NCBI GenBank assembly: GCA_900472675.1
Contig: UCJA01000022.1
Location: 1-64,000 of the forward strand
Origin: Hyphomicrobiales bacterium
GTDB lineage: Bacteria > Pseudomonadota > Alphaproteobacteria > Rhizobiales > Rhizobiaceae
Direction: 5' to 3'
Length of the DNA: 64,000 nt
Positions 44,578 through 47,874 of this stretch are shown in pieces. How positions within the stretch are numbered: the stretch's first letter is position 1; every line of letters starts with the position of its first letter. The position numbers and the translations under genes are program-made. The notes beneath the pieces were generated by a model. That model was not told where the DNA came from and did not search any database. It saw only the letters and a program-made list of their open reading frames with translations.

Positions 44578-45222
44578 CTACCAGCGCAGTAGGCGGGGGC
44601 CGAGCAGAAGGCCGAGCAGGCCGGTTGCGAGGATGCCGAGCGAATACCAGATCAGCACGAAGGGCATGCCGTTTTCCGTGCAGAACCAGGAGTAGACGAA
44701 GGCGCCGGCGGCACCGGCTGCGAGGCCGGCCATGAAGCCCGCCTGGCGCAGATCCGCCGGGGCTGCGGCACGCATCCACAAGAAGGCGGCGACAAGCACG
44801 GGTAGGGCGAAGGCAAAGATCAGGAAAGGGCAGTGCAGTGCCGAATGTCCAAGGATCAGGCGGCGATAGACCGCCTCGGGGGAGAGGGCCAGCTGGAACA
44901 CTGCCGCCACGCCCATCAGCGCCACGACGACGGCGATCTCGCGGAACACCGGTCCGGTGTCCCCGTCCGGCCGGGCGATGCGATAGAGGGCGAACAGGGC
45001 AATCGCGGCGATCAGGAAGTTGTAGGCCGCCTTGATCCAGAAGACGGGCAAGGTGAGCGCCACCGCCATATCCACCCGCAGGCCGGCGAGGGTCAGCATC
45101 AGCACGAGCGAGACGGCGAGCGACGACAGGATGGCGACCAGAAACCGCCTCGAGAGGGCGTGCCGTGCAACCGGCTTCAGGTCGCCAACCAAGCTCTCGA
45201 TGATGTCGTCGGTCTTCCTCAT
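44578..45222 (-). CDS. nrsF: NrsF-type (DUF1109) transmembrane anti-sigma factor
   Basis: A 214-residue inner-membrane anti-sigma factor of the DUF1109 family with about six helices and a short cytosolic N-terminal segment (MRKTDDIIESLVGDLKPV) expected to hold the sigma factor. It has only two cysteines, Cys131 and Cys181, the positions reported as essential for signal sensing in Caulobacter NrsF. Its ATG overlaps the sigma factor stop codon (ATGA). Oxidation or metal binding at these cysteines would release SigF. Partner gene and order fit the SigF/NrsF system. Confidence 0.9.
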   Translation of the reverse strand: MRKTDDIIESLVGDLKPVARHALSRRFLVAILSSLAVSLVLMLTLAGLRVDMAVALTLPVFWIKAAYNFLIAAIALFALYRIARPDGDTGPVFREIAVVVALMGVAAVFQLALSPEAVYRRLILGHSALHCPFLIFAFALPVLVAAFLWMRAAAPADLRQAGFMAGLAAGAAGAFVYSWFCTENGMPFVLIWYSLGILATGLLGLLLGPRLLRW

Positions 45223-45767
45223 GCTTCGCCTCGTATTCTCGCTGCCAATGCCTTCAAACCCCTGTGAATACTCACCTTGACCGCCGATTCGGACTGGCCC
45301 CTGCTGCTTGCGGTTTCGGCGACCGACCGCCCCTCGAGCCGCACCTGCCGGATCATCTCACGCTGGGCGGGCGGGAGTGCGTCGAGGAGCCGGTCCAGGT
45401 CCAGACGCGCGGTCAGGGACTCGGCGCTGAAATCGTCCTCGATCTTGTCGTGCAACTGCGTCTCGGCTGCCTTTCGGCCACCCCGGCCGCGGTGGTGGTC
45501 GATCAGCTTGTAACGGGCGATCGAGAAGAACCAGGCGGTAAACGGACGCGTCCGGTCGTAGGTATGGCGCCGGGCATGAAGAGAGAGCAGGGTATCCTGC
45601 ACCAGATCCTCGACGTCCGCCTGCGCCGCACCGCTCATCCGGCGTCCGTAATAGGCGACGAGAAGCGGCCGGGCAGCGTGCAGAAGACGCCGGTAGGCGC
45701 CCTCGTCGCCGTCAAGCGAGAGCAGCATCAGGGTCTTCAAATCGTCTTCTGTCCGCGCGGCCGTCAT
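45219..45767 (-). CDS. sigF: SigF-like ECF sigma factor (ECF16 type)
   Basis: An extracytoplasmic-function sigma factor of 182 residues. Region 2 contains DVEDLVQDTLLSLHARR and TAWFFSIARYKLIDHHR; region 4 contains LPPAQREMIRQVRLEGRSV and the HTH end ESAVKVSIHRGLKAL. It is followed with four-base overlap by its DUF1109 anti-sigma. Its own promoter (TGTAACC-N16-CGTAA) ends only about 14 bases before ATG 45767 and there is no Shine-Dalgarno, so the message is either near-leaderless or translation begins at Met14 (45728). In S. meliloti the related RpoE1/RpoE4 respond to sulfite; in Azospira SigF responds to chlorine oxidants. Confidence 0.9.
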   Translation of the reverse strand: MTAARTEDDLKTLMLLSLDGDEGAYRRLLHAARPLLVAYYGRRMSGAAQADVEDLVQDTLLSLHARRHTYDRTRPFTAWFFSIARYKLIDHHRGRGGRKAAETQLHDKIEDDFSAESLTARLDLDRLLDALPPAQREMIRQVRLEGRSVAETASSRGQSESAVKVSIHRGLKALAARIRGEA

Positions 45768-45781
45768 CTGTCTTTAGGCTC

Positions 45782-45809
45782 TTACGAAGGAAGGGGCCTG
45801 CAGGTTACA
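45782..45809 (-). promoter_or_regulatory. ECF promoter for sigF-nrsF
   Basis: On the minus strand TGTAACC (45809-45803), 16 bases, then CGTAA (45786-45782). It matches the SigF-type pattern and mirrors the promoter at 45854-45881 facing the other way, implying positive autoregulation of the sigma factor. Confidence 0.8.
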
Positions 45810-45853
45810 GGCGATCGTCACTTTCTTTGATGCGTATCACATGCACGTGAGCC

Positions 45854-45881
45854 TGTAACCGTCGACCGCCGGCCTGCGAAT
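45854..45881 (+). promoter_or_regulatory. ECF promoter for the mrpX-yedZ1-yedY1 operon
   Basis: TGTAACC (45854-45860), a 16-base spacer and CGAAT (45877-45881). The -35 element is identical to that of the divergent sigF promoter 45 bases away and the spacing is the same. Transcription would start about 50 bases before the methionine-rich peptide gene. Confidence 0.8.
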
Positions 45882-45936
45882 GAGCAGATGTGAGGCTTCG
45901 GCATGGCGCCGGGGCCTGATCATCAGGGAGACCATC

Positions 45937-46197
45937 ATGACCAGATTTCTTTCCAGCCTTGCCGCCTGTTCGCTCGTCCTTAGCCTCGGGATCGCTTCGG
46001 CCCAGGCCCAGGCCCAGACCAGCACCGGCACCATGAAGACGGACAGCATGCACAGCGACACGATGAAGGCCGATCCGATGAAGACCGATGCCATGCATAC
46101 GGCGACCACCAAGAAGGACTGCATGCATTCGGCCTCGATGGAGAAGGACTCGATGAAGAAGGCCGACATGATGAAGCATTGCGACGCCATGAAATAA
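45937..46197 (+). CDS. mrpX: Methionine-rich periplasmic peptide (MXKDX repeats, MrpX-like)
   Basis: An 86-residue protein: signal peptide to about residue 24, then a roughly 62-residue mature chain containing 11 methionines in loose pentapeptide repeats of the form M-K-x-D-x / M-x-x-D-x (MKTDSMHSDTMKADPMKTDA region). Methionine-rich MXKDX proteins act as sacrificial oxidant scavengers whose Met sulfoxides are then reduced. In Azospira suillum, MrpX does this for hypochlorite together with YedY1/YedZ1. ATG 45937 has AGGGA upstream; the frame from 45880 overlaps the promoter. First gene of the operon. Confidence 0.85.
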   Translation: MTRFLSSLAACSLVLSLGIASAQAQAQTSTGTMKTDSMHSDTMKADPMKTDAMHTATTKKDCMHSASMEKDSMKKADMMKHCDAMK

Positions 46198-46207
46198 GCG
46201 CACTGCC

Positions 46208-46233
46208 GCGGCCGCCCGGCCAAGGGCGGCCGC
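46208..46233 (+). terminator. Intra-operon hairpin after mrpX
   Basis: GCGGCCGCCC (46208-46217), a six-base loop and GGGCGGCCGC (46224-46233) form a perfect ten-pair stem with no T-run. Placed between the small abundant peptide and the membrane genes, it probably protects the upstream message or attenuates read-through, giving more peptide than reductase. Confidence 0.65.
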
Positions 46234-46264
46234 AGTCCCCAAGGGTTCACTCAGGGAGAGGAAC

Positions 46265-47101
46265 ATGGATCCGAACGCTTCCGCACCTCACGGGCGGGTC
46301 AAGGTCTACCGCCACAGCCTGCTCGTGCGACTGTCGCACTGGTTCAATGTCCTGTGCATGAGCTTTCTGCTCTTGAGCGGGCGGCAGATCTTCAACGCCC
46401 ATCCGGCGCTCTACTGGGGCCAGTACGGGGCGGACAATGACCCGTCGTTCATTTCCATGCAGGCGGTGGAAGAGGGCGGAGCGCAAAGGGGCGTGACGCA
46501 GGTCGGCGCGCTGACGTTCGACACGACCGGGCTGCTCGGGCTTTCCAAGGTGGACGGCGAGGAGACTGAGCGCGGCTTTCCGAGCTGGGCGACGCTTCCG
46601 AGCTACCAGGATCTGGCCGCCGGGCGGCGATGGCATTTCTTCTTCGCCTGGCTCTTCGTCATCAACGGCTTCGTCTATCTCATCTACGGGATTATCAGCC
46701 GGCATCTGCGCTCGGACCTTACGCCCGCAAGCGCCGAGCTTGCGCCCGTTCACCTGCTGCAGGAGGTCAAGGATCACGCACGCCTGCGCTTTCCCAAAGG
46801 GCAGTCGGCACGCCACTACAACACGCTGCAGAAGCTCGCCTATCTCGCTGTCATCTTCGTGCTTTTGCCGATGATGATCGCCACCGGGCTCACCATGTCG
46901 CCCGGCTTCAACGCGGTCGCACCGATTCTGCTCGACCTGTTCGGCGGGCGGCAATCGGCCCGCACGCTGCACTTCCTCAGCGCCTTCGGCCTTGTCGCCT
47001 TCGTCGTCGTGCATGTGGTGATGGTGCTGGTGTCCGGTGTCTTCAACAACATGCGCTCGATGATCACCGGCTATTACGCGATCGAAGGAGACAAGCCATG
47101 A
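46265..47101 (+). CDS. Cytochrome b / b6-domain membrane protein (YedZ1-like)
   Basis: A 278-residue inner-membrane b-type cytochrome with four main helices and haem-ligand candidates in VRLSHWFNVL, RRWHFFFAWLF, LHFLSAFGLV and VVVHVVMVL. It belongs to the Ni,Fe-hydrogenase/formate-dehydrogenase cytochrome b superfamily. It should pass quinol electrons to the periplasmic molybdopterin reductase, whose gene overlaps it by four bases. ATG 46265 has GGGAGAGG upstream. The context identifies it as the YedZ1-like electron donor of the oxidant-repair operon. Confidence 0.88.
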   Translation: MDPNASAPHGRVKVYRHSLLVRLSHWFNVLCMSFLLLSGRQIFNAHPALYWGQYGADNDPSFISMQAVEEGGAQRGVTQVGALTFDTTGLLGLSKVDGEETERGFPSWATLPSYQDLAAGRRWHFFFAWLFVINGFVYLIYGIISRHLRSDLTPASAELAPVHLLQEVKDHARLRFPKGQSARHYNTLQKLAYLAVIFVLLPMMIATGLTMSPGFNAVAPILLDLFGGRQSARTLHFLSAFGLVAFVVVHVVMVLVSGVFNNMRSMITGYYAIEGDKP

Positions 47102-47874
47102 GCCGCCTTCTCACCCGCCGCCGGTTTCTGGTAGGCTCGACGCTAACAGCTTCGGCGCTCGGGCTGACCGGCTGCGATGCGCTCGTCGAAAACAGCCGCG
47201 TGCAATCGGTGCTGAAGATCGCCGAAGGCTTCAGCATGAAGACGCAACGCTTCCTGCAGGGTGACAACGCGCTGGCGCGGGAATTCTCTACGGCCGATCT
47301 GTCGCCGGTGTTTCGCGCCAACGGCACGAGCATGCCCGACAATCCGCAGTATCTGAGCTGGATGAGTGCGCAGTTTTCCGACTGGAAGCTCGGCGTCGAC
47401 GGGCTGGTGAACAGCCCGCTGCAGCTTTCGCTGGCCGAGATCAAGGCGATGGCGTCGCGCACCCAGATCACCAGGCATGACTGCGTCGAGGGCTGGAGCG
47501 CGATCGGCCAGTGGACGGGTGTGCCGCTCGGCCTCGTGCTGCAGAGAGCGCAGCTGAAGCCCGAAGCGCGCTACATCGTCTTCCACTGCGCCGACGAGTA
47601 CGAGAAGTCACTCGACGGGTCGGGCTGGTATTACGAGAGCATCGATCTGGTCGATGCCTTCCATCCGCAGACGATCCTTGCCTATGGGATGAACGGGCGC
47701 GACCTGGAGGTCGCTCATGGTGCGCCGCTGCGGCTGAGGGTGGAACGGCAGCTCGGCTACAAACAGGCGAAATACCTGACGCGGATCGAGGTGGTGGCCG
47801 ATCTTGGCCAGCTCTACGGCGGGAATGGCGGCTTCTGGGAAGACCGCGGCTACGAATGGTATGCGGGGATCTGA
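47098..47874 (+). CDS. Tat-exported molybdopterin oxidoreductase (YedY1-like)
   Basis: A 258-residue sulfite-oxidase-fold molybdoenzyme. The N terminus has a twin-arginine signal, RRRFLVGSTLTASALGLTGC, in which the final Cys lies in a possible lipobox. The molybdenum-ligand cysteine is in TRHDCVEGWSAIGQW, followed by FHCADEYEKSLDGSGWYYES and LAYGMNGRDLEVAHGAPLRL. In MsrP/YedY-type systems such enzymes reduce methionine sulfoxide; related SorT-like enzymes oxidise sulfite. Given the methionine-rich peptide in the same operon, repair of oxidised MrpX is the preferred reading. ATG 47098 overlaps the cytochrome stop codon. Confidence 0.88.
   Translation: MSRLLTRRRFLVGSTLTASALGLTGCDALVENSRVQSVLKIAEGFSMKTQRFLQGDNALAREFSTADLSPVFRANGTSMPDNPQYLSWMSAQFSDWKLGVDGLVNSPLQLSLAEIKAMASRTQITRHDCVEGWSAIGQWTGVPLGLVLQRAQLKPEARYIVFHCADEYEKSLDGSGWYYESIDLVDAFHPQTILAYGMNGRDLEVAHGAPLRLRVERQLGYKQAKYLTRIEVVADLGQLYGGNGGFWEDRGYEWYAGI

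Follow-up and report, generated by a model that had tools for sequence, protein, structure and literature searches.

We analysed a 64,000-nucleotide stretch of DNA (the window) from a Hyphomicrobiales bacterium of the Rhizobiaceae (assembly GCA_900472675.1, contig UCJA01000022.1, positions 1 to 64,000, forward strand) and found at 44578-47874 a real, complete and conserved five-gene cassette in two divergent operons, nrsF-sigF on the minus strand and mrpX-cytochrome-yedY1 on the plus strand. The cassette is of a known kind, already annotated on Rhizobium plasmids, and by analogy with the bcr set of Brucella and the mrpX set of Azospira it is likely to be a methionine bait-and-recharge system controlled by SigF and NrsF. 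What we add is a probable lipid anchor and a b561 partner for its molybdoenzyme, a C-x19-C hairpin in its peptide, the repeated pairing of such enzymes with bait proteins, and further MsrPQ, enzyme-pair and SigF-NrsF copies. All five genes proposed by an initial annotation of this DNA were borne out at their position by open reading frames (ORFs) and by Pfam or NCBIfam matches (lengths are in amino acids, aa; ECF, extracytoplasmic function; Tat, twin-arginine translocation; the name yedY1 is borrowed from its namesake):

44578..45222, minus strand: nrsF, anti-sigma factor of 214 aa with Cys131 and Cys181 (PF06532, E 8.9e-64)
45219..45767, minus strand: sigF, ECF16-like sigma factor of 182 aa, with a 4-base overlap with nrsF
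45783..45808, minus strand: predicted ECF16 promoter of sigF-nrsF, GTAACC-N16-CGTA
45855..45880, plus strand: predicted ECF16 promoter of mrpX-cytB-yedY1, GTAACC-N16-CGAA
45937..46197, plus strand: mrpX, methionine-rich secreted peptide of 86 aa with a signal peptide at about residues 1-24 (TIGR02953)
46117..46194, plus strand: two-cysteine module of MrpX (Cys62, Cys82), C-x19-C, helices in an AlphaFold2 model
46265..47101, plus strand: cytB, cytochrome b561-type membrane subunit of 278 aa with His25, His124, His236 and His250 (PF01292)
47098..47874, plus strand: yedY1, Tat-exported molybdoenzyme and probable lipoprotein (LTGC-D) of 258 aa with ligand Cys129 (PF00174); the corrected start at 47098 overlaps the cytochrome stop (ATGA)

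At rest, the membrane protein NrsF (six helices by published models) would hold SigF. To judge from studied relatives, a strong periplasmic oxidant would alter NrsF through Cys131 and Cys181, and the SigF thus freed would drive both operons. Secreted MrpX would then offer its methionines to hypochlorous acid (HOCl) or related oxidants. As family and gene order suggest, YedY1, probably lipid-anchored at the inner membrane, would reduce the methionine sulfoxide with electrons that reach it from quinol through the adjacent b561 cytochrome.

The best evidence that methionine sulfoxide in bait proteins may be the substrate is that methionine-rich partners of several kinds stand beside this enzyme and not beside MsrP. 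Our detector, written after several of these proteins had been seen, called for a signal peptide, 55-200 aa and at least 10% Met in the mature part, on the same strand and no more than 1.5 kb upstream or 1.3 kb downstream of the paired cytochrome and enzyme genes (1.5 kb up and 2 kb down for controls). It marked 32 of 117 clusters (90% identity, from 152 loci) of near relatives of the window enzyme, neither an independent nor a fair sample, and 31 once L079, a likely chance ORF, is discounted. On the opposite strand 0 of 117 clusters had a methionine-rich secreted protein, and canonical MsrP loci had such a neighbour in 0 of 40 cases, one of the 41 control loci (L348, 34 bits) not being MsrP; MsrQ was recognised at 11 of the 41 with one query. 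With loci treated as independent, 31/117 against 0/41 gives a Fisher p of 4.6e-5.

The baits are of different kinds. First come TIGR02953 MXKDX peptides, with a C-x19-C hairpin in rhizobia, to which MAPDAM-type peptides also belong (L151 and L230 over the cut-off, L159 one bit short). A second kind comprises HdeA-like proteins with DDMAADDM repeats (PF06411 at 21.1 bits in L150, marginal against a cut-off of 22, and weaker in L242), and a third the proteins with 18-20 Met encoded downstream of the enzyme (L184, L186, L188, L191), which gave no NCBIfam match for the three tested and no Pfam match for L188. The methionine-rich neighbour in L202 likewise matched no family. This pattern argues for the YedY1 type as a methionine-sulfoxide reductase serving such baits. 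A lipid-anchored, b561-linked YedY1 might even be a general recharger of interchangeable baits of at least three kinds not recognisably related, a tentative proposal that we would sooner doubt than assume, and low-complexity sequence leaves common descent of the kinds possible. If different baits do recur beside one reductase type, methionine content itself would be the selected trait, and the enzyme's neighbours could be used to find further oxidant sinks. In L149, L150, L153 and L242, secreted proteins beside the same enzyme type carry methionine repeats between two cysteines.

Several observations weigh against the bait-and-recharge reading. By the detector's definition 85 of the 117 clusters are without a methionine-rich neighbour, and one more is doubtful. 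Two genomes, G620 (96% complete, 8% contaminated) and G574, keep sigF, nrsF and an mrpX-type peptide, and YedY1 was not found genome-wide in either, so the enzyme would not be essential to the peptide's use. YedY1 reaches 101.1 bits against the MsrP model NF003767, short of its cut-off of 207. Chlorine oxidants may not be the signal, because the ECF16 pairs of other bacteria respond to chromate and cadmium (Caulobacter, PMC3511200) or to H2O2 (Bradyrhizobium, PMC3420878). Activity, induction and oxidation in this organism are predictions.

The first two of these points favour an uncoupled arrangement, in which MrpX would be a sacrificial sink and the YedY1-cytochrome pair would repair ordinary periplasmic proteins in parallel, not MrpX: G620 and G574 both have canonical MsrP, as do all eight genomes checked, these two included, and the majority of enzyme clusters lack a methionine-rich neighbour. 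We nevertheless think such an arrangement unlikely, given that mrpX is the first gene of the enzyme's operon in the cassettes and that several kinds of methionine-rich protein recur beside this enzyme and not beside MsrP.

MrpX itself matches TIGR02953, 'pentapeptide MXKDX repeat protein', at 50.6 bits (cut-off 41) and, cut after residue 24, has the 11 Met in 62 mature residues that the initial annotation had counted (binomial p 4e-7 with an assumed background of 2.5% Met). The peptide is more than a run of methionines, carrying a conserved two-cysteine module as well. An AlphaFold2 model from 14 sequences has a predicted local distance difference test score (pLDDT) below 50 over residues 18-41 and helices at 47-67 and 72-84, with a mean pLDDT of 91-92 over residues 61-80. 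Residues 61-86 form the module D-C-x3-A-x-M-E-x8-M-x-K-x-C-D. Its C-x19-C spacing recurs in 24 of the 43 methionine-rich proteins compared (23 distinct sequences), across which the D, C, A, M, E, M, K, C and D are invariant. Repeats come after the module, not only before it, in L139, L141, L178 and L180. The G620 and G574 peptides keep the module, which is thus retained without the enzyme. The hairpin is probably a folding or docking element, and perhaps a disulfide or metal site. A likeness by eye to the PsiF repeat was rejected: five module sequences gave no match to Pfam by HMMER, 0 of 40 relatives matched PsiF, and the profile-profile score of 11.0 was reached by 9 of 60 column shuffles.

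The same cysteine pair, flanked by Met and often His, invites the suggestion that MrpX is a metal buffer whose Met, Cys and His residues bind Cu(I) or a similar soft metal, with YedY1 keeping the binding methionines reduced. Bufferin clusters, which encode copper-chelating peptides, do include sigma and NrsF genes (PMC12452194); in E. coli, MsrP repairs the copper chaperone CusF after its oxidation, and CusSR controls msrPQ (PMC9302797); and Caulobacter SigF answers to cadmium and chromate (PMC3511200). But neither the distant MXKDX peptides L095 and L096 nor two cassettes, L145 and L146, which lack the module, have the Cys pair, and the Brucella equivalent is HOCl-induced. Among the eight Pfam-tested ORFs around the locus (43.3-51.5 kb) there was no efflux pump or metal chaperone, nor any DUF2282 precursor or MNIO (DUF692) gene, so the locus is not of the bufferin type by that test. 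A metal buffer would, on balance, be a rather improbable role for the cassette.

In sequence, length and fold YedY1 is nearer MsrP than the sulfite dehydrogenases. It matches PF00174 (E 1.2e-36), its ligand motif HDCVEGW fits CVE[AG]W, and Cys129 is invariant in both enzyme alignments; it has the SUOX fold and Cys-ligand motif of MsrP. The Tat-exported molybdoenzyme with a cysteine ligand and the cytochrome b (PF01292) that had been proposed are therefore both present. Against the MsrP score of 101.1 bits, YedY1 reaches 65.0 with SorA (cut-off 600), 54.3 with SoxC (420) and 46.2 with SorT (570), below the cut-off in each case. Its best PDB sequence match is E. coli YedY (1xdq, E 3.8e-14). Structure prediction against MsrP and SorT, a check proposed in the initial annotation, gave a model (mean pLDDT 77.7, predicted template modelling score 0.75) whose closest folds are 1xdy and 1xdq (E 8e-15), with SorT/SorA-type sulfite dehydrogenases next (E 1.3e-12). 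SorA, SorT and SoxC carry a C-terminal dimerisation domain; in YedY1, with 258 aa against the 365-390 aa of the solved bacterial sulfite enzyme chains, matches end near residue 235 and that domain was not found. Such sequence and fold comparisons support the proposed methionine-sulfoxide rather than sulfite role. That the molybdoenzyme is instead a sulfite dehydrogenase feeding the cytochrome, in sulfite or thiosulfate oxidation, is very improbable in view of these scores, the length, the b561 partner, the methionine-rich neighbours and the ECF26 class of the sulfite-responsive sigma factors of S. meliloti, although the superfamily is shared, there are weak matches to the SorA, SoxC and SorT models, folds of SorT and SorA type come close behind MsrP (E about 1e-12 versus 8e-15) and Caulobacter CC2748 was called a sulfite oxidase subunit, YedY (PMC3511200).

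YedY1, a probable Tat lipoprotein paired with a b561 cytochrome, departs in this from MsrPQ. Like E. coli MsrPQ, the window pair combines a Tat-exported molybdoenzyme of SUOX fold, with Cys as its ligand, and a haem partner in the membrane; it differs in length (258 versus 314 aa), in the probable lipid anchor, in a b561-type partner that is not MsrQ and in the adjacent methionine-rich peptide. Downstream of the Tat motif stands a lipobox, LTGC, with Asp at +2, a residue that retains lipoproteins in the inner membrane of E. coli. By an expression of our own, a lipobox is found in 101 of 116 enzyme clusters (L100 left aside), 86 of them with Asp, and in 3 of 28 readable canonical MsrP proteins (a control without L348 and 12 loci where the core motif failed). 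The cytochrome matches the b561 family PF01292 (E 6.7e-25) and is not of the MsrQ type. Its His25 is present in 113 of 115 rows (two gaps) and His124, His236 and His250 in 115 of 115; four conserved histidines are a feature of di-haem b561 proteins.

As precedent the initial annotation had named the Azospira set. The sigF-nrsF-mrpX-yedY1-yedZ1 genes of Azospira suillum, reportedly found to scavenge hypochlorite by Melnyk in 2015, are indeed the same functional set as the window cassette. The A. suillum mrpX-yedY1 hypochlorite-scavenging system is summarised in PMC4623255, but the closest experimental precedent that we found is bcrS-abcS/bcrXQP of Brucella melitensis, which is HOCl-induced, directly sigma-activated and contributes to HOCl resistance (PMC8315932). 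That system shares with the window an ECF16 sigma, a DUF1109 anti-sigma, a divergent MXKDX operon, the same cytochrome-molybdoenzyme order and GTAAC/CGAA promoters on both sides; BcrP and BcrQ are described in the same paper as homologous to MsrPQ, and the likeness described here is one of gene plan. Of at least 589 named relatives of the window enzyme, the best 80 included no record titled Brucella. The literature found describes the cassette as studied in Azospira and Brucella only. Common plant-associated bacteria thereby join a perchlorate reducer and an animal pathogen, the best-known sources of this oxidant defence. One reductase type with differing methionine-rich baits, its lipid anchor and the two-cysteine hairpin deserve attention, and the hairpin of rhizobial MrpX gives, in the model, a concrete structural feature.

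By analogy with studied relatives, we expect the signal to be a strong oxidant and most probably a chlorine species; metals are the chief alternative. This expectation follows from the HOCl induction in Brucella, from cysteine data in Bradyrhizobium, where Cys179 of OsrA is required for the H2O2 response (PMC3420878), and in Caulobacter, where substitution of C131 and C181 in NrsF raises basal expression in a system that answers to chromate and cadmium (PMC3511200), and from the matching Cys131 and Cys181 of the window NrsF. It follows also from the failure of a link to sulfite drawn earlier through S. meliloti, whose sulfite-responsive RpoE1 and RpoE4 are ECF26, not ECF16 (PMC6180224). The ECF16 member there is RpoE7, with DUF692 and DUF2063 genes among its strongest targets and reporters that did not respond to H2O2, Cd or chromate (PMC6180224).

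The regulatory half of the cassette, proposed as an ECF16-like sigma factor with a DUF1109 anti-sigma facing the peptide operon, stood up well: NrsF matches PF06532 and has both cysteines, and the promoters have the expected form. The sigma factor contains regions 2 and 4 and scores 176.3 bits with NF009191 (cut-off 171) and 186.4 with NF009188 (below the cut-off of 250); we infer its ECF16 type from NrsF and the promoter form. Across the aligned NrsF rows, window included and some places entered twice, Cys131 is present in 87 of 87 and Cys181 in 86 of 87. The pattern GTAAC-N15..18-CGWA has two matches between the operons, one per strand, pointing outward, and this form matches the ECF16 promoters of Caulobacter (PMC3511200), Bradyrhizobium (PMC3420878) and Brucella (PMC8315932). 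Genome-wide the pattern is not enriched (74 matches versus 361 for a backwards control), so the motif alone carries little weight and it is the outward-facing pair that counts; a site in each direction between sigF and the peptide recurs in all 13 cassettes found among the 40 family loci described below. A regulon scan covered 50 regions of the 74 motif places and classified 34 motifs with C or A after GTAAC. Of these, 29 lie inside ORFs of at least 150 codons and five outside, and the SigF regulon is therefore likely to be little more than the cassette's two operons; one motif (L383) stands 81 bases before an ORF resembling, by eye, a response regulator. Among 28 peptide-type loci the base after GTAAC next to sigF was mostly C (21; A 3, G 2, T 2), and among 32 others mostly A (22; G 5, C 4, T 1), under crude labels (some 'others' have or have lost a peptide, and loci without a site are uncounted). 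C versus A as promoter classes is a lead only.

A search of 297 genomes of the family, probably Rhizobiaceae, with YedY1 (E 1e-30) found a relative in 87, with 97 matches listed. From these, 40 were fetched, a choice that was not random, and 13 of the 40 hold the cassette (peptide and sigF divergent), a lower bound, at least one more lying outside the 40 (G400, L269). NrsF accompanies 12 of the 13; in the exception (L132, 2581-3721) sigF is in two frames and nrsF was not found, a trace of decay. Four of the 13 also carry a gene for a 208-aa secreted protein behind yedY1. In L304 (1863-2015), a short yedY1-like reading-frame piece beside sigF-nrsF without mrpX is a further trace of decay. Named relatives with the cassette belong to Rhizobium, Neorhizobium and Phyllobacterium, which places the organism in the family; the earlier label 'a rhizobium' holds at that level, and a search for NodC gave no match at or over the cut-off. 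Rhizobium johnstonii 3841 is one carrier of the cassette (L173). At least 80% of the block is present in 32 plasmid records; all 20 of those listed are from Rhizobium, and several have gene-by-gene annotation. Outside the family, the full cassette is present in a Xanthobacteraceae metagenome-assembled genome (L189) and in Chelatococcus reniformis (L194), whose enzymes share 66-68% identity with that of the window.

In a 73-row tree (L100 dropped; L079, L099 and L147 cut to their last 262 residues), the 13 cassettes and the window form one clade, with a Shimodaira-Hasegawa-like approximate likelihood ratio test (SH-aLRT) value of 90, nested in a 24-row clade (SH-aLRT 97). All of the ten remaining rows, which include the 66% identical second copy in this genome, come with the 208-aa protein, and eight of them with a TetR gene. 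In a wider tree of 116 enzyme clusters (LG+G4 model, SH-aLRT only), the window's 35-row clade (98) holds 16 SigF-plus-bait, 15 208-aa-protein, 3 bait-only and 1 SigF-only rows. The SigF-plus-bait label requires 7 changes across that tree, of which well-supported branches force at least 4, and the presence of any bait requires 11, counts that do not separate gains from losses; the pairing would thus have been gained, lost or swapped repeatedly. A distant enzyme clade, 38-40% identical to YedY1, has mixed contexts: L090 alone combines SigF with the peptide; in L095 and L096 the peptide comes without SigF in the stretch, and in L094 and L098 SigF comes without the peptide. A query with an enzyme of that clade found 0 of 297 family genomes at E 1e-50. 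In Rhizobium tropici IGFRI Rhizo-19 (L201, 2586-5777), sigF-nrsF faces a block of 208-aa protein, cytochrome and molybdoenzyme rather than mrpX, an intermediate arrangement.

The genome of the window also has a canonical MsrPQ (L040, 4001-5646; MsrP 485.8 bits and MsrQ, NF003831, 151.3 bits, both over cut-off) and, on contig C31, a second enzyme pair (L038, 3189-4840) whose molybdoenzyme is 66% identical to YedY1 and comes with a b561 cytochrome. The block of this pair (L038, 3189-6208) includes a TetR gene and encodes a secreted protein of 208 aa for which neither Pfam nor NCBIfam gave a significant match, and no sigF or mrpX is directly adjacent; a second sigF/nrsF pair lies about 10 kb away on that contig (L038, 14585-15797), with a GTAACA-form site 11 bases before sigF. 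The genome thus carries one sigF promoter of each form, GTAACC and GTAACA. Blocks like L038 3189-6208 occur in other Rhizobiaceae, Bordetella, Salinicola and Stutzerimonas. Around the cassette, the neighbours examined (a branched-chain amino-acid binding protein gene, an AptA-type aminotransferase and a PhoX phosphatase) are by name unrelated to it.

A similar grouping was seen on the E. coli plasmid p152661_p2 (L250, 4313-5971), where the gene for a DUF4405 cytochrome stands together with those for a molybdoenzyme that shares 37% identity with the window's and for a methionine-rich peptide of 82 aa (TIGR02953 at 38.8 bits, cut-off 41). The plasmid is conjugative, of the IncF type, and has sul2 and aph(3'')-Ib as well; DNA matching the L250 stretch is present in 73 of 5426 complete E. 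coli genomes, at 76 places, all on plasmids.

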